A DNA stretch of 64,000 bases from Bosea vaviloviae (GTDB taxonomy: Bacteria > Pseudomonadota > Alphaproteobacteria > Rhizobiales > Beijerinckiaceae): assembly GCF_001741865.1 (NCBI RefSeq), contig NZ_CP017147.1:6191001-6255000 (forward strand). The letters are read 5' to 3'. The translations under genes were made by a program, and so were the position numbers. This document shows positions 21,471 to 46,440 of the stretch, one piece after another (the stretch's first letter is position 1; every line of letters begins with the position of its first letter). The notes below the pieces were generated by a model. It had not been told where the DNA came from and made no database searches. It was given only the letters and a program-made list of their open reading frames with translations.

Positions 21471-21558
21471 GCAAGCGACGCTCGCAAATTCCCGACTTGA
21501 ATTCGTCATGCAACACGGTCATTCCCGCCCTGCAATTTCTAGGGGAGAGAATCAGTCC

Positions 21559-22119: not shown

Positions 22120-22169
22120 TGGCGCGGTCGGCTAGGATGCTGGCTCAATTTCGATGAAGTCAGGGCCTG

Positions 22170-22544: not shown

Positions 22545-22564
22545 TTGGGGCAGGCAAACTCGCG

Positions 22565-23182
22565 TCAGGCTCCAGCCGGCCGCGCCCACGGCCTGCGGTC
22601 GTCGTCAGCCGCACGGAACCGCGCGATCTCGCCGGCACAAGACCGCGTCACGTCGATATCGTCCCAGCCATTGAGCAACTGCTCGCGCCAGACCGGGTCA
22701 ATCGCGAACGTGACCGCGCGATTGCCCCAGGCAACCGTCTGCTCCGCCAGATCGACGCTGACCGGCAGATCCGGCGTCGCGGTCAGGGCCGCCAGCAGAT
22801 CCTCGATGTCGGCCTCGTCGAGCACCGCCGGCAAAAGCCCGTTCTTGACCGCGTTGGACGCGAAGATGTCGCCGAAGGTCGGCGCCAGCACGACGCGGAC
22901 GCCATGATCGGCCAGCGCATAGACCGCCGCCTCTCGCGACGAGCCCGAGCCGAAATTACGCCGCGCCACCATGATCTCAGCCCCGCGCCAAACCGGACGG
23001 TTCAGCGGAAAATCGGGCTTCTCGACCCCGGCATCGTCGCGGCGCAGATCATGCAGCAGAAAGCCGCCATAGCCCTCCGAACGCGGGCGCTTCATGAAGC
23101 GGGCCGGGATCAATTGGTCGGTATCGACGCCGGCGAGGCCGAGCGGGCAAGCAGGCCCGGCGACATGGGTCAACGGCTTCAC
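22565..23182 (-). CDS. LeuD-like small subunit of an isopropylmalate isomerase-family hydratase
   Basis: A 205-residue swivel-domain subunit starting at GTG 23182, which overlaps the TGA of the large-subunit gene (GTGA). The core loop is [13 protein letters not shown] and the active-site segment is [17 protein letters not shown] at residues 75-90. Canonical LeuD reads NFGCGSSREHAPWAL, so the cysteine is Ser79 and the HAPW box is AAVY. With the divergent large subunit this argues for a paralogous hydratase acting on another hydroxy-diacid rather than leucine synthesis. The two genes are divergent from a GntR regulator and next to a catabolic cluster. Confidence 0.85.
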
Positions 23183-24636
23183 GACCGCCCCTCCAGCATC
23201 GGCCGGACATCGGTGAGATGCCCGGTCACCGCCGCAGCGGCGACCATGGCCGGCGACATCAGATGGGTACGGGCGCCCGGCCCTTGCCGGCCGCGGAAAT
23301 TGCGGTTCGTCGTCGAGGCGCAACGCTCGCCGGAGGACACGCTGTCGCCGTTCATGCCGACGCACATCGAGCAGCCGGATTCGACCCATTCGAGCCCGGC
23401 CGCGATGAAGATGCGGTCGAGCCCCTCCTCCTCGGCCTGCCGCTTCACCTGGCTCGAGCCCGGCGAGACCAACCCCGGCACGCGCGCCTTGCGGCCCGCA
23501 AGCACGCTTGCCGCCGCGCGCAGATCCTCGATGCGGGCATTGGTGCAGGAACCGATGAAGACGCGGTCGACCACGATCTCGCTCAGCTTCTGCCCCGGCC
23601 GCAACCCCATATAGGCGAGCGCATCGCGCATGGCGGCGGCGCGGCCCTCATCGGCGAGCGCGGCCGGATCGGGCACGCTGGCGCCAATCGGAAGCGCATC
23701 CTCCGGGCTCGTCCCCCAGGTGACGATGGGTGCGATCGCACCCGCATCGATCGTGATCTCGCGATCGAAGACGGCACCCGCATCGCTCGGCAGTTGACGC
23801 CACGCGGCGATGGCTGCCTCCAGCGCCGCTCCCTTGGGCGCATAGGGCCTGCCGGCGATCCAGCGGAAGGTCGTCTCGTCGGGCGCGATCAGCCCGCAGC
23901 GTGCGCCCGCCTCGATCGACATGTTGCACATGGTCATGCGGCCCGCCATCGAGAGCGCCCGCACCGCCTCGCCGCCATATTCGATGGCATAGCCCCGCGC
24001 CCCGTCCGCGCCGATCTTCGCGATGATGCTGAGGATGAAGTCCTTCGCCCCCACGCCCGGAGCGGGCGTGCCGTCGATGCTGATGCGCATGCGCCTGGGC
24101 TTCTTCTGCCAGAGCGTCTGCGTCATCAGCACATGCGCGACCTCCGAGGCGCCGATGCCGAAGGCATAGGCCCCGAAGGCGCCATGGGTCGAGGTATGAC
24201 TGTCGCCGCAGACCATGGTCAGCCCCGGCAAGGTCAGCCCTTGCTCGGGCCCGACGACATGGACGATGCCCTGGCGCGGATCGTTCAGCCCGAAGAGCTC
24301 AACGCCATGGCGCGCTGTATTCGCCGCCAGATCGTCGATCATCCGGGCGATCTCGGAGTTGGCGATGTGGTCGCGGCCACGCGTCGGCACGTAATGGTCG
24401 GCGATGCCGAAGGTCAGACCGGGCTCGACGACGATCCCATCGCGGCCCGCGACTTGCGCAAAGGCGTGAAACGAACCCTCATGCACGAAATGCCGGTCGA
24501 TCCAGATCAGCGCATCGCCTGACGGCCGCTCGACGACGACATGTGCGTCCCAGAGCTTGTCGAACAGCGTGCGCGGTCCGGCCCCGGACTTGCTTCCGCT
24601 CCCAGGCGTTCCGGCGGTCATGGTTGCGGCTGTCAT
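23179..24636 (-). CDS. LeuC-like large subunit of an isopropylmalate isomerase-family hydratase
   Basis: A 485-residue aconitase-superfamily subunit. Three [4Fe-4S] ligands are in FIGSCTN (Cys364) and SGCSMCVG (Cys422, Cys425). [18 protein letters not shown] and [16 protein letters not shown] match the LeuC group; several otherwise conserved positions differ from biosynthetic LeuC (for instance [13 protein letters not shown]). The start used is ATG 24636, preceded by GGGTAGG; an in-frame ATG 36 bases upstream is less well supported. It forms a heterodimer with the LeuD-like subunit and moves water across a C=C bond of a di- or tricarboxylate. Likely catabolic (see context). Confidence 0.88.
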
Positions 24637-24762
24637 CGGGCCTACCCTTTCCCAGCTGATCATAGAGACCACACGACGCTTGACGCAAGCGAGTTGTCCT
24701 ATACGCTATACAGGTAGTTGTTCTGATAGACAGTCAGATCATTCGTCATCGAAAGGCCCCGC
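24637..24762. promoter_or_regulatory. Divergent control region of leuCD-like genes and gntR
   Basis: TTGACG at 24680-24685 and an AT-rich TATA-CGC-TATA palindrome within CCTATACGCTATACAGG (24698-24714) are candidate promoter and GntR operator elements. HutC-subfamily regulators bind short TATA-rich palindromes of this type. GAAAGG before the GTG at 24763 is a usable ribosome site. Confidence 0.4.
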
Positions 24763-25536
24763 GTGGACGCTTCGCTCGAACCTCTCAAGGCGCGACGCAT
24801 CTATCTGCTGCTGCGTGAACGCATCGCCAGCGGCGAGATTTCGCCCGGCACCCGCCTGGCGAGCGAGCCGGCCCTGGCGCTGCAGCATGGCGTCTCACGC
24901 GTCACCATTCGCCGCGCGCTCGACAGCCTCGCGACGGACGGCCTGATCGACCGCCGCGTCGGCGCCGGCACCTTCGTGCGCGAGCCCGAGGCGCCCCGGC
25001 CGATCGTCGCGGATTTCTCGAACATGCTGACCCATCTGGTCGAGATGGGCCGCCGCACCGGCGTGCGCCTGCTCGCCTTCTCCTATGTCCAGCCGCCCGA
25101 GGCGGTAGCCCAGGCGCTCGCGCTTGGCCCGGGCGAGCGCACCCAGCGCTCGGTCCGCGTCCGCCTGATCGACGGCCAGCCCTTCTCCTATCTGACGACG
25201 CATGTGCCCGAGCGCATCGGCCTGACCTATTCGGAAGCGGACCTCGCGACCGTGCCGCTGCTGACGCTGCTCGAGCGCTCGGGCGCATTGGTCGAGCGCG
25301 CCAGCCAGGCAATCAGTGCGACCCTGGCCGGCCCTGATGTCGCCGAGGCGCTCGGCCTCGAGATCGGCTCGCCGCTCCTGTCCCTGACGCGCGTCGTCCT
25401 CGGGCCGGACGGCAGCGGCGTCGAGTATCTGCACGCGCTCTATCGGCCCGACCGCTACTCCTTCCAGATGGAACTCCACCGCGCCGGCGAGGCTGGCGAG
25501 AGGCGCTGGTCGCCAGTGCCGGCCCAGGCCGGTTGA
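24763..25536 (+). CDS. GntR-family regulator, HutC/UTRA subfamily
   Basis: A 257-residue regulator. Residues 8-75 are the winged helix-turn-helix (RIYLLLRERIASGEISPGTRLASEPALA, then SRVTIRRALDSLATDGLIDRRVGAGTFV, of which the VTIRRAL core is diagnostic). Residues 95-245 form the UTRA effector domain with SVRVRLIDGQPFSYLTTHVPE and LTRVVLGPDGSGVEYLHALYRPDRY. It is divergent from leuCD-like genes and upstream of the importer and catabolic genes, so it probably represses both sides until a pathway intermediate binds. GTG start. Confidence 0.9.
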   Translation: MDASLEPLKARRIYLLLRERIASGEISPGTRLASEPALALQHGVSRVTIRRALDSLATDGLIDRRVGAGTFVREPEAPRPIVADFSNMLTHLVEMGRRTGVRLLAFSYVQPPEAVAQALALGPGERTQRSVRVRLIDGQPFSYLTTHVPERIGLTYSEADLATVPLLTLLERSGALVERASQAISATLAGPDVAEALGLEIGSPLLSLTRVVLGPDGSGVEYLHALYRPDRYSFQMELHRAGEAGERRWSPVPAQAG

Positions 25537-25604
25537 TCGCTCGAGACAAGCCCGGCGCGAGACCGGGCCAGACGCACCGCAAACAAAACAGAGGAGAACG
25601 TGAG

Positions 25605-26825
25605 ATGACCAGGACAACCGAGCTTTCCCGCCGCACGCTTTTGACGACGGCGGCGATCGGCGGAGCGGCGACCATCGCCATGCCCGGGCTGCTGCGCGCA
25701 CAGGCCCCCGCCATCAAGGTCGGCATCCTGCAGCCCGTCACCGGCGCGCTCGCTTATGACGGCCAGCAGGGCCAGATCGGCGCGGAGGCCGCGATCAAGG
25801 CGATCAATGAGGCCGGCGGCATCAAGTCGATGGGCGGCGCGAAACTCCAGATGGTCTTCGGCGACGCCCGCTCGACGCCTGAAGGCGGCACGGCCGAAGT
25901 CGAACGCATGCAGGCCGAGGGCGTGGTCGCGATCGTCGGCGGCTTCGCCTCGCCGATCTGCCTTGCCGCCTCCCAGGCCGCCGCGCGCTACGACCTGCCC
26001 TATATCGTCGATGTCGGCGTCGCCGATTCGATCGTCACGCGGGGCCTGAAGAACACCTTCCGCTTCGGCCCCGGCTTCGGCACGGTGACCAAGACCGCGC
26101 TCGACAATCTCTCCAAGCTCAACGACGCCGCCGGCAAGCCGGCGAAGACCGTCGTGCTGGTGCATGAGGACGGGCTCTTCGGCTCGGGCATGGCCAAGCT
26201 GATGCAGGCCGAACTGCCCAAGCGCGGCTTCGAGGTGCTGGACACGATCGCCCATCCGACGCCGTCGCGCGATATGTCGAACGTCGCGCTCCAGATCCGC
26301 GCCAAGAACCCCGATCTCGTCATTCCCTCGAGCTATTACGGTGAATTCGCCCTGCTCGCCCGCACCATGCAGCAGCAGCGCATCAAGCCGAAGGGCATCT
26401 ACGCCGTGCTCAACGGCGCGGCCTCGAATTTCCGCTTCGTCAAGGAATTCCAGGACGCCGCCCAGTTCGTGATGGACTGCAACCACTGGCACGATCCGCG
26501 CAAGCCTGTCGCCGAGGCGCTGCGCAAGCAGGTCGAAGCCTCCGGCAAGTTCTGGACCTACAACATCCCGCTCAACTATTCCTGCGTCCAGCTCCTCGCC
26601 GACGCGCTGGAGAGGGCGGGCTCCGGCGACAAGGCCAAGCTGACCGAGGCGCTCATGGCCTCGACCTTCGCCGGTCACATCATGCCCTATGGCCCGACCA
26701 AGTTCGTCAACGGCCAGAACGAGGGTGGCGCGCCGGTGAACACCCAGGTCCAGGGCGCCGACATCAAGGTGATCTTCCCGACAGATTTCGCCGACGCGAA
26801 GCCGATCTTCCCCGTGCCGGCGTGA
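25605..26825 (+). CDS. ABC transporter substrate-binding protein, branched-chain amino acid type
   Basis: A 406-residue periplasmic binding protein (LivJ-like, type I fold). The N-terminus has a Tat-like signal: two arginines in ELSRRTLLTTAAIGG, hydrophobic stretch, end near LLRAQ. The mature protein starts IKVGILQPVTGALAYDGQQGQIGAE, the family opening. The ATG at 25605 follows a GAGGAGA site; an earlier in-frame start at 25533 is unsupported. Relatives bind amino acids, amides, urea or aromatic acids, so ligand is open. It is the first importer gene, followed after a repeat by permeases and ATPases. Confidence 0.9.
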   Translation: MTRTTELSRRTLLTTAAIGGAATIAMPGLLRAQAPAIKVGILQPVTGALAYDGQQGQIGAEAAIKAINEAGGIKSMGGAKLQMVFGDARSTPEGGTAEVERMQAEGVVAIVGGFASPICLAASQAAARYDLPYIVDVGVADSIVTRGLKNTFRFGPGFGTVTKTALDNLSKLNDAAGKPAKTVVLVHEDGLFGSGMAKLMQAELPKRGFEVLDTIAHPTPSRDMSNVALQIRAKNPDLVIPSSYYGEFALLARTMQQQRIKPKGIYAVLNGAASNFRFVKEFQDAAQFVMDCNHWHDPRKPVAEALRKQVEASGKFWTYNIPLNYSCVQLLADALERAGSGDKAKLTEALMASTFAGHIMPYGPTKFVNGQNEGGAPVNTQVQGADIKVIFPTDFADAKPIFPVPA

Positions 26826-26837
26826 CATACGCGGCTA

Positions 26838-27048
26838 TCCTTCTCCCCTCCCATCTCGGGCTTGCCCGAGATGGGCAACCCAAAGTGTCAAAGTCGGCAA
26901 CAGCCGACTTTGATGGGGAGAAGGTGACTCCGCGTAGCGGAGACGGATGAGGGAAGGGCAGCGCCTGAACGCTACCGAATCTCACCTTCGTCATTCCTTC
27001 CCTCATCCGTCGCCTTTGGCGACACCTTCTCCCCCAAGGGGAGAAGGA
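26838..27048. repeat. Composite palindromic repeat family C, copy 1
   Basis: Modular element between the binding-protein and livH genes. Modules: CCCATCTCGGGCTTGCCCGA and GATGGG hairpin; AAAGTCGGCAACAGCCGACTTT hairpin (20-base core AAGTCGGCAACAGCCGACTT); terminal blocks CCTTCTCCCC / GGGGAGAAGG; and GACGGATGAGGG / CCCTCATCCGTC arms. The right end GGGGAGAAGGA lies about ten bases before the livH ATG and acts as its ribosome site. A second copy with the modules in another order is at 38732. Confidence 0.9.
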
Positions 27049-27058
27049 AGAGCGCAGC

Positions 27059-27931
27059 ATGTTCGCACCAGACATCATCCTCGCAGCCGTGCTGAACGGC
27101 CTGATGACCGGCTCGGTCTATGCGCTGATCGCGCTGGGCCTGACGCTGGTCTATGGCGTGCTGCACATCATCAATTTCGCCCATGGCGCGACGCTGACGG
27201 CGGCTATGTTCGCCGTCTATGTCGCGCACACCGTCTTCAGGCTCGATCCCTACATCGCGCTCTTCATCGTCACGCCGCTGTTCTTCGGGCTGGGCTACGG
27301 CGTGCAGCGCTTCATCATCGGCCCGGCAAGCCATGGCGAAGACCGCAACATCTTGCTGGTGACGCTGGGCCTCTCGATCCTGATCGAGAACGCCATGCTC
27401 GCGATCTTCCGCTCCGATACGCGCTCGATCGACGTGCCCTACGCCTTCTCCTCGATCGATCTCGGCTTCACCTTCCTGGCGCTGCCACGCGTGCTCGCCT
27501 TCGGCGTGGCATTGCTGGTCGCGCTGCTGCTCGGCCTGCTGCTCACCCGCACCGATACCGGCAAGGCGATTCGCGCCGTTGCCCGCGAGAAGACCGGGGC
27601 GGCTTTGGCCGGCATCGACGTCGCCCATATCTACGCCGTCACCTTCGGCCTGGGCGCGGCCTGCGTGGCGATCGCCGCCTGCCTCTTGATGCCGACCTTC
27701 TATGTCACGCCTCGCGCGGGAAACGCCTTCGTGCTGGTCGCCTTCACCATCGTCGTGCTCGGCGGCATGGGCTCGATCCCCGGTGCGCTCCTGGGCGCCC
27801 TCTTCATCGGCGTGGTCGAGAGCCTGTGCGGCTTGTTCTTCGGCGAGAGCCTGGGCCAGATCGGCATCTTCCTGATCTTCATCCTGGTGCTGCTGGTGCG
27901 GCCCACCGGCCTGTTCGGAGCGCGCGCATGA
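27059..27931 (+). CDS. ABC transporter permease, LivH type
   Basis: A 290-residue inner-membrane permease with about eight hydrophobic segments. The start LNGLMTGSVYALIALGLTLVYGVLHIINFAHG contains the family motif GLTLVYGVLHIINFAHG; GKAIRAVAREKTGAALAGID is the ATPase-coupling loop, and VLGGMGSIPGALLGALFIGVVESL closes the protein. Overlaps the next permease gene by four bases (ATGA). Works with LivM, LivG and LivF and the binding protein at 25605. Confidence 0.94.
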   Translation: MFAPDIILAAVLNGLMTGSVYALIALGLTLVYGVLHIINFAHGATLTAAMFAVYVAHTVFRLDPYIALFIVTPLFFGLGYGVQRFIIGPASHGEDRNILLVTLGLSILIENAMLAIFRSDTRSIDVPYAFSSIDLGFTFLALPRVLAFGVALLVALLLGLLLTRTDTGKAIRAVAREKTGAALAGIDVAHIYAVTFGLGAACVAIAACLLMPTFYVTPRAGNAFVLVAFTIVVLGGMGSIPGALLGALFIGVVESLCGLFFGESLGQIGIFLIFILVLLVRPTGLFGARA

Positions 27932-28968
27932 GCAGTTCGCGCGCCTTCGCCCCCGCGCTCGTCCTGCTCCTGCTGGCAGCGCTGATCCCGGTCTTCGTCA
28001 CCGCCAACACGGTGCTGAACTTCATCGTCTTCACGCTGATCATCGCGCTGGCGGCCCAGGGCTGGAATCTGCTCGGCGGGCTCTGCGGCCAATTCTCCTT
28101 CGGCCACGCCGCCTTCTTCGGCAGCGGCGCCTATGCGGCCGCACTCCTGCAGGCGCGCTATGGCGTCAATGCCTGGGCAGCCTTCACCGCCGCCATCGCG
28201 ATCGCGGCGCTGGTCGGCTGGATCATCGGCTATCTCAGCTTCCGCTCGGGGCTGCGCGGCTCCTATTTCGCCCTGGTGACGCTCGCCTTCGCCGAGGTCT
28301 TCCGCATCCTCGCCAATGCCTCGGCCTTCACCGGCGGGGCGGCCGGCACGCTGATCAAGCTCGATATCCGGCCCGAGAACTTCCAGTTCGCCAGCCGCGC
28401 CGCCTTCGTCTGGATCGCGCTCGCGCTCGTCGGCTTTACCTTGCTGCTGACGACGGCAATCACCCGCTCGCGCCTCGGCGCCTGGTTTGCGGCCGTGCGC
28501 GAGAACGAGGACGCGGCGCGCGCCCTCGGCGTCGACACGCTTGCCGTGAAGCTCAAGGCGATCACGCTCTCGGCCGGCATCACCGGCGCGGCCGGCGCGC
28601 TTTATGTGCAATATTACCTCTATCTCGACGCCAGCATCGCCTATGGCTCCTGGATCTCGGTCGAGGCGCTGATCGCCCCGATCATCGGCGGCATCGGCAC
28701 GCCGCTGGGGCCGATCGTCGGCGCGGTGACGCTGCATGGCCTGGGCGAACTGACGAAACTCTTCGCCGGCGGCATCCCCGGCATCGATCTCGTGATCTAT
28801 GGCGCGCTGCTGGTCGCCGCGATCGCCTTCGCGCCCGACGGCATGATGGGGCTGCTGAAGCGATTGGGCCGCAGCCAGGTCACGCCCGAGACGTCCACGC
28901 CCAAAACGACCGCGTCCAAGACGACCGACGCCAAGATGACCGTCACCAAGACGGAAGGAGCCGCCTGA
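27928..28968 (+). CDS. ABC transporter permease, LivM type
   Basis: A 346-residue permease. Homology runs from the ATG at 27928 (ALIPVFVTANTVLNFIVFTLI), so the long open frame upstream is non-coding. GWNLLGGLCGQFSFGHAAFFG and VRENEDAARALGVDT are family motifs. The C-terminus has an unusual low-complexity tail after KRLGRSQ, rich in Thr/Lys/Ser (TPETSTPKTTASKTTDAK), built from a degenerate repeat of codons for T, K and S. The tail is not expected in the family and may be a recent expansion. Stop overlaps the livG start by one base (TGATG). Confidence 0.93.
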   Translation: MSSSRAFAPALVLLLLAALIPVFVTANTVLNFIVFTLIIALAAQGWNLLGGLCGQFSFGHAAFFGSGAYAAALLQARYGVNAWAAFTAAIAIAALVGWIIGYLSFRSGLRGSYFALVTLAFAEVFRILANASAFTGGAAGTLIKLDIRPENFQFASRAAFVWIALALVGFTLLLTTAITRSRLGAWFAAVRENEDAARALGVDTLAVKLKAITLSAGITGAAGALYVQYYLYLDASIAYGSWISVEALIAPIIGGIGTPLGPIVGAVTLHGLGELTKLFAGGIPGIDLVIYGALLVAAIAFAPDGMMGLLKRLGRSQVTPETSTPKTTASKTTDAKMTVTKTEGAA

Positions 28969-29715
28969 TGCTCGCCGTCGAGACCATTACCAAGCGCTTC
29001 GGCGGGCTCGTCGCGGTCAATGCCGCAAGCCTCAAGGTCGCTGCCGGCTCGATCACCGGGCTGATCGGCCCCAACGGCGCCGGCAAGACCACCCTGTTTG
29101 CCGTCATCGCCGGCTTCGAGAAGGCCAGCGAAGGCCGCATTCTCTTCGCAGGCCAGGACATCACGGCGCAGCCCGCGCATCTGCGGGCCCAGGCCGGCAT
29201 CGCCCGCACCTTCCAGATCGTCCAGCCTTTTGCGGGCCTCAGCGTTGTCGAGAACATCGCCGTCGGTGCCTATCTGCGTCATTCCGGCCGGGCCGAAGCG
29301 CAGGCCAGAGCGCGCGAGGTCGCAAGCCTCGTCGGTCTCGGCGCCATGCTCGACCAGCCGGCCTCCTCGCTCACGGTCTCCGGCCGCAAACGGCTCGAAC
29401 TGGCGCGCGCGCTGGCGACGGAACCCAAGCTTCTGCTGCTCGACGAGGTGCTGGCCGGGCTCAACCCATCGGAAATCCGCGACATGATCCCGGTCATCCG
29501 CCAGATCCGCGACCGGGGCATCACCATCCTGATGGTCGAGCATGTCATGCAGGCCGTGATGAGCCTGTGCGAGGACATCCATGTGCTGGCTCAGGGCCGC
29601 ATCATCGCGCAGGGAACGCCGAGCGAGATCGCCACCAATCCGGCCGTGATCGAAGCTTATCTCGGCCAGGGCGCAGCCAAGCGGCTGCAGGGGTCGGCAG
29701 GCATGGGAGCAGACC

Positions 29716-29723
<8 letters not shown>
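28968..29723 (+). CDS. ABC transporter ATP-binding protein, LivG type
   Basis: A 251-residue ATPase. Walker A GPNGAGKTTLFAVI, the Q-loop region ARTFQIVQPFAGLSV, signature-type LTVSGRKRLELARAL (SGRKR in place of SGGQ), Walker B LLLLDEVLAGLNP and switch histidine MVEHVMQAV. The LivG class with its C-terminal GTPSEIATNPAVIEAYLG segment is clear. The signature SGRKR is typical of some LivG proteins of this subgroup, so it should still be active. Overlaps livF by eight bases. Energises import. Confidence 0.94.
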
Positions 29724-30417
<694 letters not shown>

Positions 30418-30424
30418 GGCCGTC

Positions 30425-31867: not shown

Positions 31868-32766
31868 CCCTTTCCCTGAAGGCACGCTTCGCTCAGGCGG
31901 AGATCGTGCTGGCGCCGGGCGTCTATGACGCGCTCACCGCCTCGCTCGGCGAGGCGGCCGGCTTCGAGGCGCTCTACGTCTCCGGCGCCTCGATCGCCTA
32001 TACCCGCCTCGGCCGCCCTGATATCGGCCTGGTCTCGATGGCGGAGGTTGCCGACACCATCACCATGATCCGCGACCGCATCGCGACGCCGCTGATCGTC
32101 GATGCCGATACCGGCTATGGCAATGCGCTCAACATGCAGCGCACCATGCGCCTGTTCGAGCGCGCCGGCGCCAATGCCCTGCAGATCGAGGACCAGAGCT
32201 TTCCCAAGCGCTGCGGCCATCTCGCCGACAAGAGCGTGATCCCGGCCGCCGAGATGGTCGGCAAGATCAAGGCTGCCGTCGATGCCCGCGCCTCGCAGGA
32301 GACGCTGATCATCGCCCGCACCGACGCTATCGCCGTGGAGGGCTTCGAATCCGCGCTCGAACGCGCTCATCTCTATGCGCAGGCCGGCGCGGACATGCTC
32401 TTCGTCGAGGCGCCGGGTTCCGCCGACGAGCTTGGCCGTGTTACCGCCGAGCTGACGGGCCTGGCTCCGCTGATGGCCAATATGGTCGAGGGCGGGCGCA
32501 CGCCGATCAAATCGGCAAAGGAGTTGGAGGCACTCGGTTTCTCGCTCGTCATCTTCCCCGGCGGCATCGTCCGGGCGCTCGCCCGCGCCGCCCAGGATTT
32601 CTACGGCACGCTGAAGCGCGACGGCTCGACCGACGCCTTCCGCAACCAGATGTTCGATTTCGACCAGCTCAACGCCGTGATCGGCACGCCGCAGATGATC
32701 GCGGCCGGCCGGAGCTATGAAGCCGAGCAGATCATCGCGGCGGCCGAAAAGAGCAGGCAGGCATGA
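31864..32766 (+). CDS. Isocitrate lyase/PEP mutase-family lyase (PrpB/dimethylmalate-lyase-like)
   Basis: A 300-residue member of the ICL/PEPM superfamily. Motifs: SGASIAYTRLGRPDIGL, LIVDADTGYGN (metal-binding aspartates, D80 and D82), QIEDQSFPKRCGH with the catalytic Cys117 of true lyases, and RTDAIAVEGFESALERA. The KRCGH box is present in methylisocitrate lyase and dimethylmalate lyase and is missing from oxaloacetate decarboxylases and phosphonopyruvate hydrolases, so C-C cleavage of a 2-hydroxy-3-substituted diacid is likely. Length fits PrpB (about 295). Start overlaps MmgE/PrpD stop. It would follow hydration by the LeuCD-like enzyme (inference). Confidence 0.88.
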   Translation: MTLSLKARFAQAEIVLAPGVYDALTASLGEAAGFEALYVSGASIAYTRLGRPDIGLVSMAEVADTITMIRDRIATPLIVDADTGYGNALNMQRTMRLFERAGANALQIEDQSFPKRCGHLADKSVIPAAEMVGKIKAAVDARASQETLIIARTDAIAVEGFESALERAHLYAQAGADMLFVEAPGSADELGRVTAELTGLAPLMANMVEGGRTPIKSAKELEALGFSLVIFPGGIVRALARAAQDFYGTLKRDGSTDAFRNQMFDFDQLNAVIGTPQMIAAGRSYEAEQIIAAAEKSRQA

Positions 32767-34448
32767 CCATGACGCTCGATCCCGTCACGCTCGCCGTGCT
32801 GAAGGGCCGGCTGGAGCAGATCGCCAACGAGATGGACGCGACGCTCTACCGCTCCGCTTTCAACCCGATCATCGCCGAGGCGCATGACGCCTGCCACGGC
32901 CTCTACCACGCCACCACCGGCGCGACCCTGGTGCAGGGTACCTCGGGCCTGCCGATCTTCGTCGGCGCCATGGCCTTTGCGGTGAAGGCAGTGATCGACA
33001 GGGTCGAGGCCGGCGCCATCAACGACCCCGGCGACACCTGGCTCTTCAACGACCCCTATGAGGGCGGCACGCATCTCAACGACATGCGCCTGGTGCGGCC
33101 GATCTTCCGCGACGGCAAACTGTTCTGCTGGCTGGCCTCGGTCGGCCACTGGCTCGATGTCGGCGGCAATGTGCCCGGCAATTTCAACGCGAAGGCGACG
33201 GAAAGCTTTCAGGAGGGCTTCCGCATCCCGCCGGTGAAGCTCGTGCGCAGGTACGAATTCCAGCACGACATCGTCGAGATCCTGAATGCCAATTCGCGCC
33301 TGCCGCAATCGAACTGGGGCGATCTCAACGGCCAGTTGAACGCGCTCGATCTCGGCGAGCAGCGCCTCGACGCGCTCTTGGCGGACTACGGCGTCGCCAC
33401 CGTCGATGCCGCGCTCGACGCCTTCAGCGCCCGCGCCGAGGCGCTGATGCGCGCCGAGATCGCAGCCCTCCCGGATGGCCGCTATTCCTTCGACGATTTC
33501 CTCGACAATGACGGCATCACCGACACCCCGCTCAGGATCGCGCTCGACCTGACGATCGCGGGCGATCTGATGACGCTCGATTTCTCGCGCTCGGCCCCGC
33601 CATGCCAGGGCCCACTCAACATCGCCTATTCCACCGCGGTCGCCTGCTGCTATGTTGCGCTGAAGCACATTTTTCCGCATGTCCCGGCCAATGCCGGCGT
33701 GCTGAAGCCGATCAGCTTCATCATCCCCGACAGCACCCTGCTCGGCGTCAAGGCACCCAAGCCCGTCGGCGGCTATACCGAGACGATCCTGCGCGTCATC
33801 GACACCGTCTTCGGCGTCTTCGCCCAGATCGCGCCCGAGCGCGCCAATGGCTCGCCCTACGCCACGATCAACGCGCTCTCGCTGGCTGGCCATCGCGACG
33901 ACGGCTCGCGCTTCGTGATGTTCTCCTTCTTCGGCGGGGGCTTGGGCGGCAATCCCGAAGGCGACGGCCTCAACCACGGCAATAATCCGATCTCGACCGC
34001 GACGATCCCGCCGGCCGAAATCCTCGAAGCCGCCTATCCCGTGATGTTCACGCAATGGGCGCTGCGGCCCGATTCCGGCGGAGCCGGCCGTCATCGCGGC
34101 GGCTGCGGCGCGATCTACGAGATCGAGGCGCTGGCGCAGTCGGGCGCGGATGTCTTCCTGCTCGGCGAGCGCGGCAAATTCCCGCCCTTCGGCGTCGCCG
34201 GGGGCGGCCCGGCCGCGATGAACCGCTTCGTCTATGACGGCCCGGACGGCCCGACATCGCCGCCACTCGTCACCAAGATCACTGACATCCACATCGCCAA
34301 GGGCCAGCGCGTCCGGCTCGAAAGCCCCGGCGGCGGCGGCTATGGCCACCCAAGGGAGCGCGATGCGGCCGCAGTGCGGCGCGATGTGGCGAACGGATAT
34401 GTGAGCGCGGAAGCCGCGCAGGCGCAATACGGTGTCGACGCGTCATGA
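32763..34448 (+). CDS. Hydantoinase B/oxoprolinase-family subunit (HyuB-like)
   Basis: A 561-residue HyuB-like subunit. It begins DPVTLAVLKGRLEQIANEMDATLYRSAFNPII and contains NDPYEGGTHLNDMRLVRPIF, SAPPCQGPLNIAYSTAV, the GGYTETILRVIDTVFGVFAQ segment (only the first part diagnostic) and the terminal ESPGGGGYGHPRERD, all family marks. Members pair with HyuA to hydrolyse or carboxylate cyclic amides, lactams or ketones at the cost of ATP. ATG overlaps the lyase stop by four bases. A family A repeat follows before hyuA, so the two subunits are not translationally coupled here. Confidence 0.92.
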   Translation: MTMTLDPVTLAVLKGRLEQIANEMDATLYRSAFNPIIAEAHDACHGLYHATTGATLVQGTSGLPIFVGAMAFAVKAVIDRVEAGAINDPGDTWLFNDPYEGGTHLNDMRLVRPIFRDGKLFCWLASVGHWLDVGGNVPGNFNAKATESFQEGFRIPPVKLVRRYEFQHDIVEILNANSRLPQSNWGDLNGQLNALDLGEQRLDALLADYGVATVDAALDAFSARAEALMRAEIAALPDGRYSFDDFLDNDGITDTPLRIALDLTIAGDLMTLDFSRSAPPCQGPLNIAYSTAVACCYVALKHIFPHVPANAGVLKPISFIIPDSTLLGVKAPKPVGGYTETILRVIDTVFGVFAQIAPERANGSPYATINALSLAGHRDDGSRFVMFSFFGGGLGGNPEGDGLNHGNNPISTATIPPAEILEAAYPVMFTQWALRPDSGGAGRHRGGCGAIYEIEALAQSGADVFLLGERGKFPPFGVAGGGPAAMNRFVYDGPDGPTSPPLVTKITDIHIAKGQRVRLESPGGGGYGHPRERDAAAVRRDVANGYVSAEAAQAQYGVDAS

Positions 34449-34539
34449 CCGTCATTGCGAGGAGCGAAGCGACGAAGCAATCCAGGAGGACGTGGAGCAC
34501 TGCCACCCCTGGATTGCTTCGCTTCGCTCGCAATGACGG
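34449..34539. repeat. Palindromic repeat family A, copy 3
   Basis: CCGTCATTGCGAGGAGCGAA at the left and TTCGCTCGCAATGACGG at the right with inner arms AAGCAATCCAGG / CCTGGATTGCTT. It starts immediately after the hyuB stop and lies within the operon. Confidence 0.92.
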
Positions 34540-34572
34540 CCGGCGGATCCTGTATATTCTGGAACCAAAATC

Positions 34573-36630
34573 ATGATTCCCTCCCCCAAGGCCGTCGTCG
34601 GCGTCGATGTCGGCGGCACCTTCACCGACCTGTTCTGGTTCGACGAGGCGGAAAAGCGCTTCCGCGTCGCGAAAGTTCCGTCGCAGCGTGGCGATGAGGC
34701 CCAGGGCTTCATCGCCGGCCTGACGACATTCGGACCCGTCGCCGGCCTCGCCTCGATCGTCCACGGCACCACGGTCGGCACCAACGCCCTGCTCGAGCGC
34801 AAGGGCGCCAAGGTCGGCGTCATCACCACGCCGGGCTTCCGCGACGCATTGGAGATGCGCCGCCGCGACCGCCGCCAGACCTGGGGGCTGTGGGGCGATT
34901 TCACGCCCGTAGCCAGCCGCGAGAACCGGCTGGAGGTGCCCGAGCGGACGCTTGCCGACGGCACGATCCGCACCCCCGTCGATCTCGATGCCGTGCGCGA
35001 GGCCGCCAAGACGCTTGCGAGCCAGGGCTGCGAGGCGCTGGCGATCATCTTCATCAACGCCTACGCCAACCCCGCCAATGAGCGCGCTGCGCTGGAAGCG
35101 GCCCGCGCGGTCTGGCCGAACGAGCACCTCGCCTGCTCCAGCGCGATCCTGCCCGAGATCCGCGAATTCGAACGCGCCTCGACGACCGCGCTCAATGCCA
35201 CGCTCCAGCCTTTGGTCGGCTCCTATCTTGGAAGGCTGGAGGATGCGCTGGCCAAGGATGGTTTCACCGGCCGCTTCCACATCGTCCAGAGCAATGGCGG
35301 CGTGATGTCGACGGCCACCGCCCGCAAGCTCCCCATCCGCACCGCCCTGTCGGGCCCTGCCGCGGGGGTCATCGCCGCCGCTGCGATCGCCCGCGCCGCC
35401 GGCTTTCCCGATGTCATCACCGGCGATCTCGGCGGCACCTCCTTCGACGTCTCGCTGATCGCAGGCGGAGAAGCGGCGCTCGCCGCCCAGAGCACGATCG
35501 ATTTCGGCATGGTGATCCGCACGCCGATGATCGAGATCACCACCATCGGCGCCGGCGGCGGTTCGATCGCCCGCGTCGATGCCGGCGGCCTGCTCGAAGT
35601 GGGGCCGGAAAGTGCGGGCTCGCGCCCCGGCCCGGTCTGCTATGGCGGGGGCAATGACCGCCCGACCCTGACCGACGCCAATCTCGTGCTCGGCCGCATC
35701 GACGGCTCGAAACCGCTCGGCACCTTGCAGAGCCTGGATGTCGAGGCCGCGCGTGAGGCGATCCGCCTCAAGATCGCAGAGCCGCTTGGGCTCGACGTGA
35801 TGACGGCGGCGGAGGCGATCGTGAAGATCGCGAATGCCCGCATGGCCGGCGCGATCCGGCTGGTCTCGATCGAGCGCGGCCATGATCCGGCAAAGTTCCT
35901 GGCCATGCCCTTCGGCGGCGGCGGCGCACTCCATGCCGGCGCGCTGATCAAGGAGGTCGGCCTGCGCGGCGCGCTGGTGCCACGCTTCCCGGGCGTCACC
36001 TCGGCGCTCGGCTGCGTCATCGCCGATATCCGCCATGACGGCGTGCAGACGGTGAATTTGATGCTCGACGGTCTCGACGCCGCCGCCCTCGACGCCCGCA
36101 TGGTCGAGGCCGGCGCAGAAGCCCATGCAATCGTCAGCGATGCCGGTTTGAGCGTCGAGCGCATCGACGTGCTCTATGAACTCGACATGCATTATCTCGG
36201 GCAGACCCATACGGTCGCAGTGCCCCTGCCGGTGACGCTTACCGACGGGCGCACCGGCGTGACCAGCACCATAATCGGCGAGGCCTTCGACAAGGCCTAT
36301 GGCGCTGCCTTCAGCCGCCTCTTGCCCGGTATCCCGGTTCGCATCGTCACGCTGCGCACGGCCGCGATCGGCCGCCGCCCCGCCTTCGACCTGACGGCGC
36401 TGGCCCCCGCCGCCGGTGCAACGTTGGAGGCAGCGCGGCGCGGCTCGCGCCAGGTCTATCTCGAGGGCCAGTGGCGCGAGACGGCGATCTGGTCGCGGCT
36501 CGATCTGCCGGTCGGCGCCAGGATCGAGGGGCCGGCGATGCTTGAGCAATCCGACGCCACGATCCTGCTCGATCCCGGCCTGACGGCGGAGGTCGACGCG
36601 CTGGGCAATCTCGTGATCCTCAGGAGCTGA
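34573..36630 (+). CDS. Hydantoinase A/oxoprolinase-family ATPase subunit (HyuA-like)
   Basis: A 685-residue ASKHA-type ATPase subunit. It has VVGVDVGGTFTDLFWFDEAE (phosphate loop), VHGTTVGTNALLERKGAKVG, GDLGGTSFDVSLIAGGE, ITTIGAGGGSIARVDAGGLL and SAGSRPGPVCYGGG, which together form the nucleotide-binding and domain signatures. The C-terminal domain continues to LDPGLTAEVDALGNLVIL. It works with the HyuB-like subunit upstream. N-methylhydantoinase, 5-oxoprolinase and acetone/acetophenone carboxylases share this fold, so the reaction may be ATP-driven ring opening or carboxylation. Confidence 0.92.
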   Translation: MIPSPKAVVGVDVGGTFTDLFWFDEAEKRFRVAKVPSQRGDEAQGFIAGLTTFGPVAGLASIVHGTTVGTNALLERKGAKVGVITTPGFRDALEMRRRDRRQTWGLWGDFTPVASRENRLEVPERTLADGTIRTPVDLDAVREAAKTLASQGCEALAIIFINAYANPANERAALEAARAVWPNEHLACSSAILPEIREFERASTTALNATLQPLVGSYLGRLEDALAKDGFTGRFHIVQSNGGVMSTATARKLPIRTALSGPAAGVIAAAAIARAAGFPDVITGDLGGTSFDVSLIAGGEAALAAQSTIDFGMVIRTPMIEITTIGAGGGSIARVDAGGLLEVGPESAGSRPGPVCYGGGNDRPTLTDANLVLGRIDGSKPLGTLQSLDVEAAREAIRLKIAEPLGLDVMTAAEAIVKIANARMAGAIRLVSIERGHDPAKFLAMPFGGGGALHAGALIKEVGLRGALVPRFPGVTSALGCVIADIRHDGVQTVNLMLDGLDAAALDARMVEAGAEAHAIVSDAGLSVERIDVLYELDMHYLGQTHTVAVPLPVTLTDGRTGVTSTIIGEAFDKAYGAAFSRLLPGIPVRIVTLRTAAIGRRPAFDLTALAPAAGATLEAARRGSRQVYLEGQWRETAIWSRLDLPVGARIEGPAMLEQSDATILLDPGLTAEVDALGNLVILRS

Positions 36631-36644
36631 GCCATGACCCTTCA

Positions 36645-36733
36645 CGTCATTGCGAGGAGCGCAGCGACGAAGCAATCCAGGAGCGGCAGAGCCCTACGCC
36701 CTCCTGGATTGCTTCGCTTCGCAGGGAATGACG
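36645..36733. repeat. Palindromic repeat family A, copy 4
   Basis: CGTCATTGCGAGGAGCGCAG with inner AAGCAATCCAGGAG, then CTCCTGGATTGCTTCGCTTC and AATGACG. It occupies the gap between hyuA and the isochorismatase-family gene. Confidence 0.88.
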
Positions 36734-36746
36734 AGGGGTCGGCGAC

Positions 36747-37349
36747 ATGACGCCCCTCGCCCACACCGCCTTGCTGATCGTCGATCTGCAGAACGACTTC
36801 ATCCATCCCGACGGGGCCTATGCGCGCGGCAGGGCCGCCTCCCCGCAGGCGCAGGCGCTGCCAGTCAAGCTCAAACCGCTGGCCGACCTCATCCGCGCCA
36901 AGGGCGGGCTCGTTGCCGCGACCCAGTTCACCCTGGTGCCGGGGCGCGGCGGCGAGCCGCTGATCTCGCCGCATCTGCTGCAGATGCGGCCCTTCCTGCG
37001 CAAGGGCGATTTCCTGCCCGGCGGCTGGGGCCATCAGGTGGTCGACACCCTGCAGCCCATCGATATCGCGGTCGAGAAGATCGCCTATTCCGCCTTCTAC
37101 CAGACGAGGCTGGAATGGCTGTTGCGCAAGCTCGCCATCGAACACCTGATCGTCTGCGGCATCGTCACCAATGGCGGCGTCGCCTCGACGGTACGCGACG
37201 CCCATGTCCGCGACATCGACGTGACCGTGCTGGAAGATGGCTGCGCCGCCCCGACCGAGATGATGCATGCAGAAGCCATCGCCGCGCTCAGGCCCGTCGC
37301 CCGTATCGCCACGATCGCGGATGCCATGGCCGAGATAGCCGCGTCATGA
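36747..37349 (+). CDS. Isochorismatase-family hydrolase lacking the nucleophilic cysteine
   Basis: A 200-residue isochorismatase-fold protein. The catalytic aspartate is Asp13 (LLIVDLQNDF) and the lysine is Lys111 (VEKIAYSAF). At the position of the nucleophilic cysteine, the GxxTNxCV motif, it reads GIVTNGGVASTVRDA, so Gly144 replaces Cys. Amide hydrolases such as nicotinamidase, maleamate amidase and N-carbamoylsarcosine amidase need that cysteine; true isochorismatases (EntB, PhzD) have Gly. So it is probably not a cysteine amidase. It is coupled by a 4-base overlap (ATGA) to the flavoprotein gene. Confidence 0.88.
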   Translation: MTPLAHTALLIVDLQNDFIHPDGAYARGRAASPQAQALPVKLKPLADLIRAKGGLVAATQFTLVPGRGGEPLISPHLLQMRPFLRKGDFLPGGWGHQVVDTLQPIDIAVEKIAYSAFYQTRLEWLLRKLAIEHLIVCGIVTNGGVASTVRDAHVRDIDVTVLEDGCAAPTEMMHAEAIAALRPVARIATIADAMAEIAAS

Positions 37350-38776
37350 ACACTGTCCGCCCAGTCGACGCCATCGCCTTCGAGGCGGAGGCCGATGTCC
37401 TGATCATCGGCGCAGGCGCGGCAGGGCTCGTCGCCGCCCTCGCCGCGAAGGAGGCCAGAGCCGAGGTCGTCATCGTCGAGCGTGATGCCGTTCCCTCAGG
37501 CTCGACCGCGCTTTCGGCCGGGCTCATCCCAGCCGCGGGCACGCGCTTCCAGCGGCAGGCCGGCATAGAGGACAGTCCGGCCCTGTTCGCGCGGGACATC
37601 CTCGAAAAGGCGCATCACGAGCCCGATGCCGCCATGGTCGAGCGATTGGCCGAGCGCATCGGACCGGTGCTCGAATGGCTCGCCGATCGTCATGGCCTGC
37701 CTTTCGACGTCATCACCAATTTCTCCTATCCCGGCCATTCCGCCAGACGCATGCACGGCCTGCCCAAGCGCACCGGCTCGGAGCTGATCGATCGTCTACG
37801 CGAGGCCGTGGAGGCCCAGGAGATCCCGATCCTCACCGGGTTTCGCGCCACCACCCTGTTCCGGAGTCCGGACGGTATGATCGCGGGCATCGCCGGCACA
37901 CGTCCCGATGGCGGCGAGGAGAGGATCGGCTGCAAGGCGCTCGTGCTCGCCTGCAATGGCTATGGCGGCAACCGCGTTCTGGTGGCGCGTCACATCCCGC
38001 ACATGACGGAAGCGCTCTGGTTCGGCCATTCCGGCAATGAGGGCGACGCCGTGCTCTGGGGCGAGCAGCTCGGCGCGGAGCTTGTCGATATGTCGGGCCA
38101 TCAGGGCCATGGCTCGGTCGCCCAGCCGCATGGCATCCTGATCAGCTGGGCGACGATCATGGAGGGCGGTTTTCAGGTCAACGCTCTGGGCGAACGCTTC
38201 TCCGACGAGAGCCATGGCTATTCCGAGCAGGCCGCCACCGTGCTGCGCCAGCCCGAAGGCAAGGCCTGGACGATCTTCGACGCCCGCATCGCCGGCATCG
38301 CGCGTCAGTTCGAGGATTTCCAGAACGCCGAGGCGCAGGGCGCGATCGTCAGTGCCGCCTCGATCGAAGATCTGGCCGCAAAGACCGGCCTTCCGGGTGC
38401 CACACTGGCCGACACCGCCGGCGAGGTCGCCGTGTTGAAGCGTGGCGAGGGGCAAGACCGCTTCGGACGCGACTTCTCAAATGTGCCGCCCCTGGCAGCG
38501 CCATTCCATGCAGTCCGCGTCACCGGAGCCTTGTTCCACACCCAGGGCGGGTTGCGCGTCGATGCCGCCGCCCGCGTCCTGGATAAGGGCGGCCGGGCCT
38601 TCCCCAATCTCCACGCCTGCGGCGGCGCGGCGGTCGGCGTCTCCGGTGCGCAGGCCTCAGGCTACCTCTCCGGCAACGGCCTGCTGACCGCCGTCGCGCT
38701 GGGCGAGATCGCAGGCAGGGCGGCAGCTTTTCCTTCTCCCCCATCAAAGTCGGCTGTTGTCGACTTTGACACTTAG
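37346..38776 (+). CDS. FAD-dependent oxidoreductase, fumarate-reductase flavoprotein type
   Basis: A 476-residue flavoprotein. The N-terminal Rossmann motif is EADVLIIGAGAAGLVAALAA and the FAD-binding pieces SGSTALSAG, ALVLACNGYGG and FPNLHACGGAAVGVSG are those of the FAD_binding_2 family (fumarate reductase, ketosteroid dehydrogenase, TcuA-like). Such enzymes add or remove hydrogen at a C=C next to a carboxylate or carbonyl. ATG 37346 overlaps the previous stop. The last 14 residues (from 463, PSPPSKSAVVDFDT) and the stop codon come from repeat C; the native terminus has probably been replaced. Confidence 0.88.
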   Translation: MNTVRPVDAIAFEAEADVLIIGAGAAGLVAALAAKEARAEVVIVERDAVPSGSTALSAGLIPAAGTRFQRQAGIEDSPALFARDILEKAHHEPDAAMVERLAERIGPVLEWLADRHGLPFDVITNFSYPGHSARRMHGLPKRTGSELIDRLREAVEAQEIPILTGFRATTLFRSPDGMIAGIAGTRPDGGEERIGCKALVLACNGYGGNRVLVARHIPHMTEALWFGHSGNEGDAVLWGEQLGAELVDMSGHQGHGSVAQPHGILISWATIMEGGFQVNALGERFSDESHGYSEQAATVLRQPEGKAWTIFDARIAGIARQFEDFQNAEAQGAIVSAASIEDLAAKTGLPGATLADTAGEVAVLKRGEGQDRFGRDFSNVPPLAAPFHAVRVTGALFHTQGGLRVDAAARVLDKGGRAFPNLHACGGAAVGVSGAQASGYLSGNGLLTAVALGEIAGRAAAFPSPPSKSAVVDFDT

Positions 38777-38941
38777 GGTCGCCCATCTCGGGCAAGCCTG
38801 AGATGGGTTGGAGAAGGTCGCAGCGCGAAGCGCTGACGGATGAGGGAATTCTCCACGTAGCGATAAGAAAAGGGCCGCTTCCGCGACCCTTCCCTCATCC
38901 GTCTGCTACGCAGACACCTTCTCCCCCGAGGGGAGAAGGGA
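38732..38941. repeat. Composite palindromic repeat family C, copy 2
   Basis: Contains the same modules as copy 1 at 26838 in a different order: AAAGTCGGCTGTTGTCGACTTT, CCCATCTCGGGCAAGCCTGA with GATGGG, GACGGATGAGGG and its inverse CCCTCATCCGTC, ending in CCCCGAGGGGAGAAGG. It spans the 3' ends of two convergent genes (flavoprotein and amidase) and supplies both stop codons. Confidence 0.9.
38870..38891. terminator. Hairpin between the convergent flavoprotein and amidase genes
   Basis: AAGGGCCGC, TTCC loop, GCGACCCTT, one internal mismatch. It is inside repeat C copy 2 and lies between the two converging stop codons. No T-run, so termination is only possible. Confidence 0.4.
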
Positions 38942-46437: not shown

Positions 46438-46440
46438 TCC

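Follow-up and report, generated by a model that had tools for sequence, protein, structure and literature searches.

A conserved gene module of Bosea vaviloviae that may open a cyclic amide and cleave the resulting branched diacid

Introduction

Several described pathways use enzymes of the families considered here. Nicotinate fermentation employs a dimethylmaleate hydratase and a 2,3-dimethylmalate lyase, and the maleamate branch of nicotine and nicotinate degradation a maleamate amidohydrolase; N-methylhydantoin degradation pairs HyuAB with N-carbamoylsarcosine amidohydrolase; the degradation of itaconate and citramalate involves RipABC, with a CoA-transferase and a citramalyl-CoA lyase. The subject of this report is a block of 14 genes in Bosea vaviloviae, at positions 22565-38776 of the analysed window (64,000 nucleotides; C1:6191001-6255000 in a genome of 6.7 Mb), in which a LeuCD-type hydratase, an MmgE/PrpD-superfamily protein, a lyase of the PEP mutase/isocitrate lyase (PEPM/ICL) family, HyuAB, an isochorismatase-fold protein and a flavoprotein stand together with a GntR-type regulator and an ABC importer. 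The nearest context found among open-licence papers is the opine region of a succinamopine Ti plasmid, which contains HyuAB and mmgE and in which HyuAB is proposed to open a lactam ring (PMC6733357). Among the open-licence matches listed in a literature search, no title or abstract beginning describes the cluster, which is weak evidence of its absence from print.

A first-pass annotation of the window had taken this block for an unreported catabolic island built around a methylcitrate-like series of dehydration, hydration and cleavage. Its core holds: the genes belong together as a catabolic module, with enzymes of ring-opening type, a hydratase of the LeuCD superfamily, a C-C lyase and an importer of its own. 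With a probability of about one half, we read the block as a self-contained pathway that degrades a cyclic amide taken up from outside; a five-membered imide or lactam bearing alkyl or carboxyalkyl substituents is the likeliest candidate. Gene content, its conservation, the pattern of replacement among variant loci and the active-site residues are direct observations and are taken up in this order.

Results

Conservation of the gene block

Contigs were scanned with the MmgE protein as bait, and the best 80 of the 121 encoding stretches were retained as loci (given below by L numbers); they are by construction the nearest relatives of this MmgE, and are informative for its neighbours, not for MmgE itself. 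Neighbours were counted by tblastn matches over at least half of each protein. Of the catabolic genes, fad is found in 68 loci, the lyase in 66, hyuB in 63, hyuA in 61 and the isochorismatase fold in 57; leuC is found in 55, leuD in 52, gntR in 58 and livK in 60. Where the flanks are full (51 loci longer than 21 kb), all 14 genes occur in 36, each with at least 45% identity, and in four arrangements: the order of the window (17 loci), fad divergent at the left and leuCD at the 3' end (8), fad followed by leuCD at the 3' end (8), and fad divergent with leuCD ahead of gntR (3). These 36 loci share ancestry, so that the counts are not independent events; the nearest named loci, from Bosea psychrotolerans and Bosea sp. 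OK403, have 94-99% protein identity across the 14 genes. The remaining 15 are incomplete (L021, L041, L047, L050, L051, L054, L056, L071, L074, L079, L081, L082, L083, L087, L091). As a control, the 19 kb around the genome's other MmgE/PrpD gene (L099) contain no match at 1e-5 to the lyase, HyuA, HyuB, the flavoprotein, the isochorismatase-fold protein, LeuC or LeuD. The co-occurrence in other genomes that the first-pass annotation had proposed to look for is thus present beyond chance, and the block is a real module.

Open reading frames and Pfam/NCBIfam scans place every family of the earlier inventory where it had been described; the importer is indeed a five-gene ABC system, with the correction that its type is Liv (branched-chain). 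The features are:

22565-23185, minus strand: leuD-type hydratase small subunit, a divergent second copy (PF00694; TIGR00171, 170.8 bits against a cut-off of 116.25)
23179-24636, minus strand: leuC-type hydratase large subunit, start codon uncertain (PF00330; PRK12466, 727 bits)
24695-24712, plus strand: putative operator between the divergent leuC and gntR, one mismatch to TGTC-N10-GACA (dyad search)
24763-25536, plus strand: GntR/UTRA regulator, HutC-like (family scans; HutC equivalog 116.1 bits, below the cut-off of 220)
25605-26825, plus strand: LivK-type substrate-binding protein (PF13458, scanned on the longer frame 25533-26825; solved LIV-type relatives)
27059-27931, plus strand: LivH permease (PF02653)
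27931-28968, plus strand: LivM permease (PF02653)
28968-29723, plus strand: LivG ATPase (PF00005, PF12399)
29716-30417, plus strand: LivF ATPase (PF00005)
30398-31867, plus strand: MmgE/PrpD-superfamily protein, start at 30398 or 30428 (PF03972, PF19305)
31864-32766, plus strand: PEP mutase/isocitrate lyase-family lyase, with KRCGH at residues 115-119 and NM[VI]EGG at 206-211 (PF13714)
32763-34448, plus strand: HyuB, hydantoinase B/oxoprolinase family (PF02538)
34573-36630, plus strand: HyuA, hydantoinase A/oxoprolinase family (PF01968, PF05378, PF19278)
36747-37349, plus strand: isochorismatase-fold protein lacking the nucleophile cysteine (Gly144) (PF00857)
37346-38776, plus strand: FAD_binding_2 flavoprotein (PF00890)

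The genes form two divergent transcription units that meet between leuC and gntR, leuC-leuD leftward and gntR-livKHMGF-mmgE-lyase-hyuB-hyuA-isochorismatase-fad rightward. Overlaps and short spacings are frequent, with gaps of about 120-230 bases 3' of livK, hyuB and hyuA. The gaps at 34449-34572 and 36631-36746 hold inverted repeats, found by eye, of a REP-like kind (GAAGCAATCCAGG and its complement); the livK-livH gap (26826-27058) holds another inverted repeat, also found by eye and distinct from the REP-like one.

Active sites and family membership

LeuC and LeuD both pass the leucine-family cut-offs (LeuC: TIGR00170, 653.8 bits against 560.25). The genome has a second leuC and leuD, about 4 kb apart (C1:5743043 and 5747032), and both score higher: 581 bits against 523 with PF00330 for LeuC, and 254.1 against about 171-172 for LeuD, the window proteins being 55% (LeuC) and 40% (LeuD) identical to these other copies. 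The window pair is thus not the best-scoring, presumably biosynthetic, copy; a role in leucine biosynthesis is rejected on these grounds, and the leucine condition under which the first-pass annotation would have given up its proposal is weakened. Cysteines 363, 421 and 424 of LeuC, which we take from family knowledge to be the ligands of the Fe-S cluster, are kept in 51 of 51 rows of at least 60% identity. The aconitase models are remote, AcnD giving 80.3 bits (cut-off 1419.85) and acnB 65.6 (1287.2).

The MmgE protein is similarly distant from PrpD, with 45.7 bits for NF042438 (cut-off 950) and no match to TIGR02330 at 1e-3; its nearest solved structures are Bacillus subtilis IRG1 (83.7 bits) and IDS epimerase (79.4). 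Four residues, His121, His169, Lys282 and His291, are invariant in 81 of 81 rows of at least 50% identity; in the alignment with cis-aconitate decarboxylase they fall on histidines and a lysine whose roles there we assume, for which reason MmgE looks like an intact enzyme. It was not found, by annotation or by tblastn at 1e-8, in the Sulfitobacter region L105 (29,236 bases) or the Acidiphilium region L106 (25,248 bases), and could lie elsewhere in these genomes; both regions retain the FAD protein, LeuCD, ring openers and a lyase, and L105 has a tautomerase-family gene in place of MmgE. In L075, L095 and L097 MmgE shares an operon with racemase-family genes. A role in proton transfer would fit these two regions, the tautomerase-family gene and the racemase-family neighbours better than an obligatory PrpD-like dehydration, which had been proposed and is now unlikely. 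Ten loci carry two to five MmgE/PrpD paralogues each (L047, L063, L071, L075, L081, L088, L094, L109, L110, L111), which suggests consecutive or isomer-specific steps.

The lyase belongs to the PEPM/ICL superfamily by PF13714 and by its active loop KRCGH, invariant in 63 of 63 rows. Its best NCBIfam match is prpB, at 280.9 bits under the TIGR02317 cut-off of 354.4; the nearest solved structures are methylisocitrate lyase and petal death protein. The motif NM[VI]EGG (Val in 61 rows, Ile in 2) resembles NMIEGG of petal death protein and is unlike NLTEFG and NITEFG of two methylisocitrate lyases. With the MmgE protein and lyase under the PrpD and PrpB cut-offs, LeuC far under that of AcnD, and MmgE not found in L105 and L106, 'methylcitrate-like' is not supported as the identity of the module.

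Both subunits of HyuAB exceed the Pfam cut-offs of the hydantoinase/oxoprolinase families, and HyuA has N-methylhydantoinase (390 bits) and 5-oxoprolinase (387) as its nearest solved relatives. The equivalog models of the caprolactamase CapAB give 490.2 and 304.9 bits, under their cut-off of 1000. HyuAB would open a ring, a role which gains support from variant loci, where PuuE-like and dihydropyrimidinase/allantoinase-like cyclic amidohydrolases stand in the absence of HyuAB.

The isochorismatase-fold protein had been called a hydrolase of its family; a cysteine hydrolase it cannot well be, as the nucleophile of the triad (which we take to be Asp-Lys-Cys) is replaced by Gly144 in 50 of 50 rows, the window included; the other two members, Asp13 and Lys111, do not vary. 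In Sulfitobacter and Neorhizobium the copies have the same residues. All 49 loci with the cysteine-less form also have HyuA and HyuB, as against none of the four with a cysteine form (L021, L050, L074, L087); outside this set, L106 is an exception, with a cysteine form beside a distant HyuAB. By analogy with true isochorismatases, in which this cysteine is missing too, the reaction may not involve an amide. The Gly-for-Cys subfamily reads TNGGV at this place (window 36747-37349, L105 12429-13031, L097 24065-24673), and some of its records are still labelled cysteine hydrolase.

In the flavoprotein, described earlier as of the fumarate-reductase type, tyrosines are aligned at both of the arginine positions of fumarate reductase (presumably the catalytic Arg402 and the substrate-binding Arg544); Tyr292 is present in all 66 rows and Tyr440 in 64, the other two having a gap there. 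That designation is thus not retained. His255, too, is the same in all 66. The same tyrosines occur in the flavoproteins of Haloferax, Tistrella (two), Neorhizobium (two), Sulfitobacter, Acidiphilium, Rhodococcus, Variovorax PBL-E5, Halorubrum and Methylobacterium nodulans. Two tyrosines in comparable places are known from 3-ketosteroid dehydrogenases, and by this analogy the pair fits a desaturation beside a carbonyl. Tricarballylate dehydrogenase (TcuA) was rejected as an identity (141.3 of 369 bits; TcuA of Variovorax RA8 is 26.9% identical), and the Variovorax RA8 region (L093) was set aside as a different system.

Variant loci

The strongest new evidence for the chemistry of the module comes from variants, in which unrelated enzymes fill equivalent steps beside the conserved flavoprotein (for plasmid matches, 12 regions of 67 were examined). 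For ring opening, L087 has two PuuE-like proteins found by scanning (116.4 and 95.4 bits, far under the PuuE cut-off of 424.6), whose protein clusters recur in L021 and L074, and Acidiphilium L106 has two annotated polysaccharide-deacetylase-family proteins at the same position. Dihydropyrimidinase/allantoinase-like enzymes, none over an equivalog cut-off, occur in L047 (a partial frame of 306 residues), Haloferax L094, Rhodococcus L108 and M. nodulans L111. Allantoin was considered as the substrate, one L082 protein exceeding the PuuE cut-off (429.8 against 424.6), but was rejected, as the window cluster has no allantoinase and the PuuE-like proteins of L087 score far below.

A second amidase of the cysteine-type isochorismatase family is found in L021, L050, L074 and L087, and seven more proteins of this type in L094, L096, L106 (two), L109, L110 and L111; the one in L087 is closest to 4l07, which we take to be a maleamate amidase, and to N-carbamoylsarcosine amidohydrolase. 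L047 has a CN hydrolase resembling N-carbamoylputrescine amidase (182.6 of 410 bits). For hydration, L051 carries a DmdA/HacA-type LeuC with LeuD/DmdB, L071 a LeuD/DmdB-type small subunit, and L108 a MaoC protein whose best NCBIfam match is itaconyl-CoA hydratase RipB/Ich (148.5 of 340). Cleavage is represented by a CoA-transferase with an HMGL-type lyase (L087, L094, L106; L074 by cluster and L110 by annotation), by a SucD-like ligase with a CitE-like lyase (L063; L081 by cluster), and by CoA-transferases with a RipC-like lyase in L108 (154.6 of 375). Transport varies likewise: ABC systems whose binding protein is of family 3 (polar amino acid) in L073, L079, L082, L084 and L091 (by clusters; L079 scanned), TRAP in Sulfitobacter L105, and MFS in L087 and L106. 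Pairs of the Asp/Glu/hydantoin racemase family occur in L075, L089 and L092 (one scanned, the others by cluster) and, by annotation, in L095, L097 and, about 8 kb off, L111; L056 has a TRZ/ATZ-like amidohydrolase between mmgE and fad.

A recurrent add-on (L095 17288-21968, L097 24695-28011) consists of a tautomerase-family or small hypothetical gene, a second flavoprotein, two Asp/Glu-racemase-family proteins and sometimes a second MmgE; L111 has only its racemase pair (21181-22727). Haloarchaeal plasmids (L094 505-17720, L110 3943-22062) bear LeuCD, HMGL, CoA-transferase, an amidohydrolase, the isochorismatase family, the FAD protein, Liv parts and two MmgE, and also an LLM oxidoreductase, whose best NCBIfam matches in L094 are F420-dependent models, under cut-off. 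On a plasmid of Sphingomonas sp. JE1 (L107 1774-21614), MmgE, HyuAB and a related flavoprotein stand beside a methyltransferase and a REDY-like HapK protein; this cluster probably serves a different substrate, and was not counted as a relative, its flavoprotein lacking the first tyrosine.

Regulation and surroundings

An exact palindrome TGTC-N10-GACA lies upstream of gntR in 30 of 46 loci (gntR at least 58% identical), whereas in 20 single-base shuffles the best dyad never exceeded 4, the counts being inflated by close relatives; the copy in the window, at 24695-24712, has one mismatch. Within the window alone, matches to the palindrome are not enriched (21 against 15.2; 10 of 100 shuffles reach 21). 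The divergent leuC/gntR region with its conserved palindrome thus makes a single regulon probable and no more, since the relatives are not independent and the pattern in the window is not above chance; of the 'one regulatory neighbourhood' claimed earlier, the arrangement stands, while co-regulation is likely, not proven. The regulator falls outside the HutC equivalog (116.1 of 220 bits), and the sequence GT.TA.AC, which we take to be the HutC operator consensus, was rejected, being found in 0 of 57 gntR upstream regions and upstream of none of eight genes; the unbiased dyad search took its place.

The right boundary at 38776 had been placed correctly, genes beyond it being rarely matched in the loci of relatives: an amidase (38906-40315) and an FCD-GntR regulator (40411-41196) were rejected as parts of the module, with matches in 2 and 3 of the 80 loci. 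Outside the module, a hexuronate-type cluster adjoins (41308-49190), with UxaC and a mannitol-dehydrogenase-family protein identified by family scan, and KduI-like, SDR, cupin and TRAP parts named from reading translations. To the left, a tyrosine recombinase with a Phage_integrase domain (20544-21470) is, from its size and reading, probably a housekeeping XerC/D.

Discussion

The proposed pathway

From these observations we infer every substrate, the order of the steps and the regulation. LivKHMGF would import a cyclic amide, in which the flavoprotein would desaturate a succinyl-type unit by removing two hydrogens adjacent to a carbonyl. HyuAB would then open the ring, with ATP by family analogy, and the nitrogen would be released at this or the next step, the cysteine-less isochorismatase-fold protein participating in an undefined way. 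The product would be a substituted maleate-type diacid, and MmgE/PrpD, as an epimerase, double-bond isomerase or dehydratase, would shuffle protons so that further stereoisomers or positional isomers could enter. As family properties, LeuCD hydratases act on maleate-type double bonds and PEPM/ICL lyases cleave 2-hydroxy diacids; LeuCD would thus add water to give a 2-alkylmalate, from which the lyase would produce a 2-oxo acid and a carboxylate, the partner of the 2-oxo acid being an acid or an acyl-CoA. The GntR protein would control the set from the shared leuC/gntR region.

This succession from imide or lactam through substituted maleate to 2-alkylmalate is suggested because the heads of the variants belong to cyclic-amide hydrolase families and their tails are suited to a branched diacid with a hydroxyl, already present or yet to be added, beside a carboxylate. 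CoA-type tails perform the same cleavage after activation, and the tails of the variants together fit an unsaturated branched diacid. The comparison would narrow the chemistry to ring opening, an unsaturated branched diacid and C-C cleavage.

Several points weigh against this proposal. HyuAB and the PuuE-like and hydantoinase-like enzymes also fit cyclic ureides. LeuC and LeuD were not detected (half of the protein, 1e-15) in nine full loci (L041, L047, L054, L056, L079, L081, L082, L083, L091), L056 having a partial LeuC-like frame at the locus end; because of these loci, hydration may be supplied elsewhere or unneeded. The hydrolysis of the half-amide has no assigned enzyme in the window, as the isochorismatase-fold protein lacks its cysteine, and MmgE, though the bait for the 80 loci, has no firm role. 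Whether the flavoprotein acts on a ring or on an open chain cannot be told from its tyrosines, as the sequence annotated as TcuA in Variovorax RA8 likewise has Tyr aligned at the two places; and the position of His255 is Tyr in Variovorax PBL-E5 (L109) and M. nodulans (L111). The pathway may also not be uniform: the 17 kb of the Xanthobacteraceae locus L038 contain gntR, liv, mmgE and fad, with no lyase, HyuAB, isochorismatase or LeuCD, and the variants may degrade different compounds. Finally, the HMGL-type lyases of L087, L094 and L106 (268.8, 281.5 and 271.5 bits) pass the HMG-CoA lyase subfamily cut-off of 246, and a hydroxymethylglutaryl-like acid would also fit these variants; methylglutarimide-type rings, considered on this account, were set aside as less likely, since LeuCD and the PEPM lyase want 1,4-diacids by family knowledge.

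Other readings of the module

A cyclic ureide (hydantoin, dihydropyrimidine or creatinine-like) as substrate is the other leading reading, though a rather unlikely one. HyuAB would yield an N-carbamoyl acid, carbamate would be lost, and the flavoprotein would convert an amino acid or dehydro-ureide to the 2-oxo or unsaturated acid that is hydrated and cleaved. With this agree the proximity of HyuA to N-methylhydantoinase (only 3 bits above 5-oxoprolinase), the dihydropyrimidinase/allantoinase-like enzymes of the variants (all under equivalog cut-offs), the CN hydrolase of L047, the TRZ/ATZ-like amidohydrolase of L056, and the racemase-family pairs of L075, L089, L092, L095, L097 and L111, although the two L075 proteins match no NCBIfam model. 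Against it, neither an aminotransferase nor an ammonia-lyase nor a recognisable carbamoylase is encoded in the window cluster, whose isochorismatase-fold protein is without the cysteine; and the metalloenzyme families concerned are also grouped with imidases in the literature.

A true analogue of the methylcitrate cycle, with MmgE as obligatory dehydratase of a citrate-like acid, LeuCD as hydratase, the lyase acting on a 2-methylisocitrate-like acid, and HyuAB supplying the acid from a lactam, is improbable. It would account for three shared superfamilies in one operon, for the conserved histidines and lysine of MmgE and for prpB as the best, if insufficient, match of the lyase; but the cluster contains no synthase gene, the 29 kb of L105 and 25 kb of L106 retain the FAD protein, LeuCD and a lyase where no MmgE was found (it could lie elsewhere), the nearest solved relatives of MmgE are IRG1 and IDS epimerase, and the lyase has NM[VI]EGG in place of the PrpB motif.

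That the substrate is a lactam opine or other amino-acid conjugate, opened by HyuAB and epimerised by MmgE, is very unlikely. The pTiEU6 account places HyuAB and an mmgE gene in the region for succinamopine catabolism and proposes that HyuAB opens lactam opines (PMC6733357); amino-acid type importers and the closeness of MmgE to IDS epimerase point the same way. Yet neither an opine oxidase nor an asparaginase is present in the window cluster, the distribution reaches haloarchaea and Desulfobacterota, and LeuCD and the lyases are left unexplained. That leucine genes, an amino-acid importer and unrelated hydrolases came together here by chance, for which the leucine-family scores of LeuC and LeuD speak, has next to no likelihood in view of the 36 of 51 complete loci in four arrangements, the separate leuCD and the control around L099.

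Within the imide/lactam pathway a more specific idea, which we consider a long shot, is that the route mineralises maleimides and succinimides from the breakdown of tetrapyrroles (chlorophyll, haem, bilins), such as haematinic acid or 2-ethyl-3-methylmaleimide. It stems from chemical fit alone: ring dehydrogenation, imide opening and hydration by LeuCD would give a 2-alkyl-3-methylmalate, whose cleavage would turn haematinic acid into 2-oxoglutarate and propionate. The two compounds are named in papers on haem, bilirubin, chlorophyll and Spirulina, and PMC7318184 deals with pyrrolic chlorophyll products. If the idea were true, bacteria and haloarchaea would follow one and the same logic by means of enzymes that are in part unrelated.

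Comparison with known systems

The module looks like an undescribed route in which a nitrogen ring is opened and a branched unsaturated diacid is hydrated and split to small central metabolites. Functional counterparts exist in Alphaproteobacteria, Betaproteobacteria, Desulfobacterota, Rhodococcus and haloarchaea, with the same steps filled by unrelated enzymes. A gene set kept through four rearrangements implies a widespread nutrient, apparently never assigned in the literature searched; it gives a context for many orphan annotations of MmgE/PrpD, HyuAB and 'fumarate reductase', offers a short list of testable enzymes, and warns annotators that a leuCD gene can be catabolic.

With the maleamate branch, the variants share an isochorismatase-family amidase (that of L087 resembles the group, if 4l07 is what we take it to be) and, on the present reading, an unsaturated diacid downstream; the window cluster, however, has no pyridine hydroxylase or dioxygenase, and its tail is LeuCD plus lyase. 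As in N-methylhydantoin degradation, HyuAB adjoins an isochorismatase-fold protein, but one without the catalytic cysteine and followed by additional enzymes. Itaconate and citramalate degradation is approached by Rhodococcus L108, with its CoA-transferases and its RipB-like and RipC-like proteins, the latter two scored below cut-off, and by other variants with a CoA-transferase and an HMGL-type lyase, whereas the tail in the window is CoA-free. The methylcitrate cycle (PrpD, AcnD/AcnB, PrpB) likewise clusters an MmgE/PrpD protein, an aconitase-superfamily enzyme and a PEPM/ICL lyase in a logic of dehydration, hydration and cleavage; the module differs by LeuCD in place of AcnD/AcnB, by an MmgE and a lyase below the equivalog cut-offs, by the absence of a citrate-synthase-type gene, by additional genes for ring opening and import, and by two variant regions in which MmgE was not found. 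From nicotinate fermentation the window cluster is set apart by other ring-opening enzymes and by the absence of a B12 mutase and a nicotinate hydroxylase, but in both a LeuCD-superfamily hydratase feeds a PEPM/ICL-family lyase, and in L051 and L071 the small subunit is itself of the LeuD/DmdB type.

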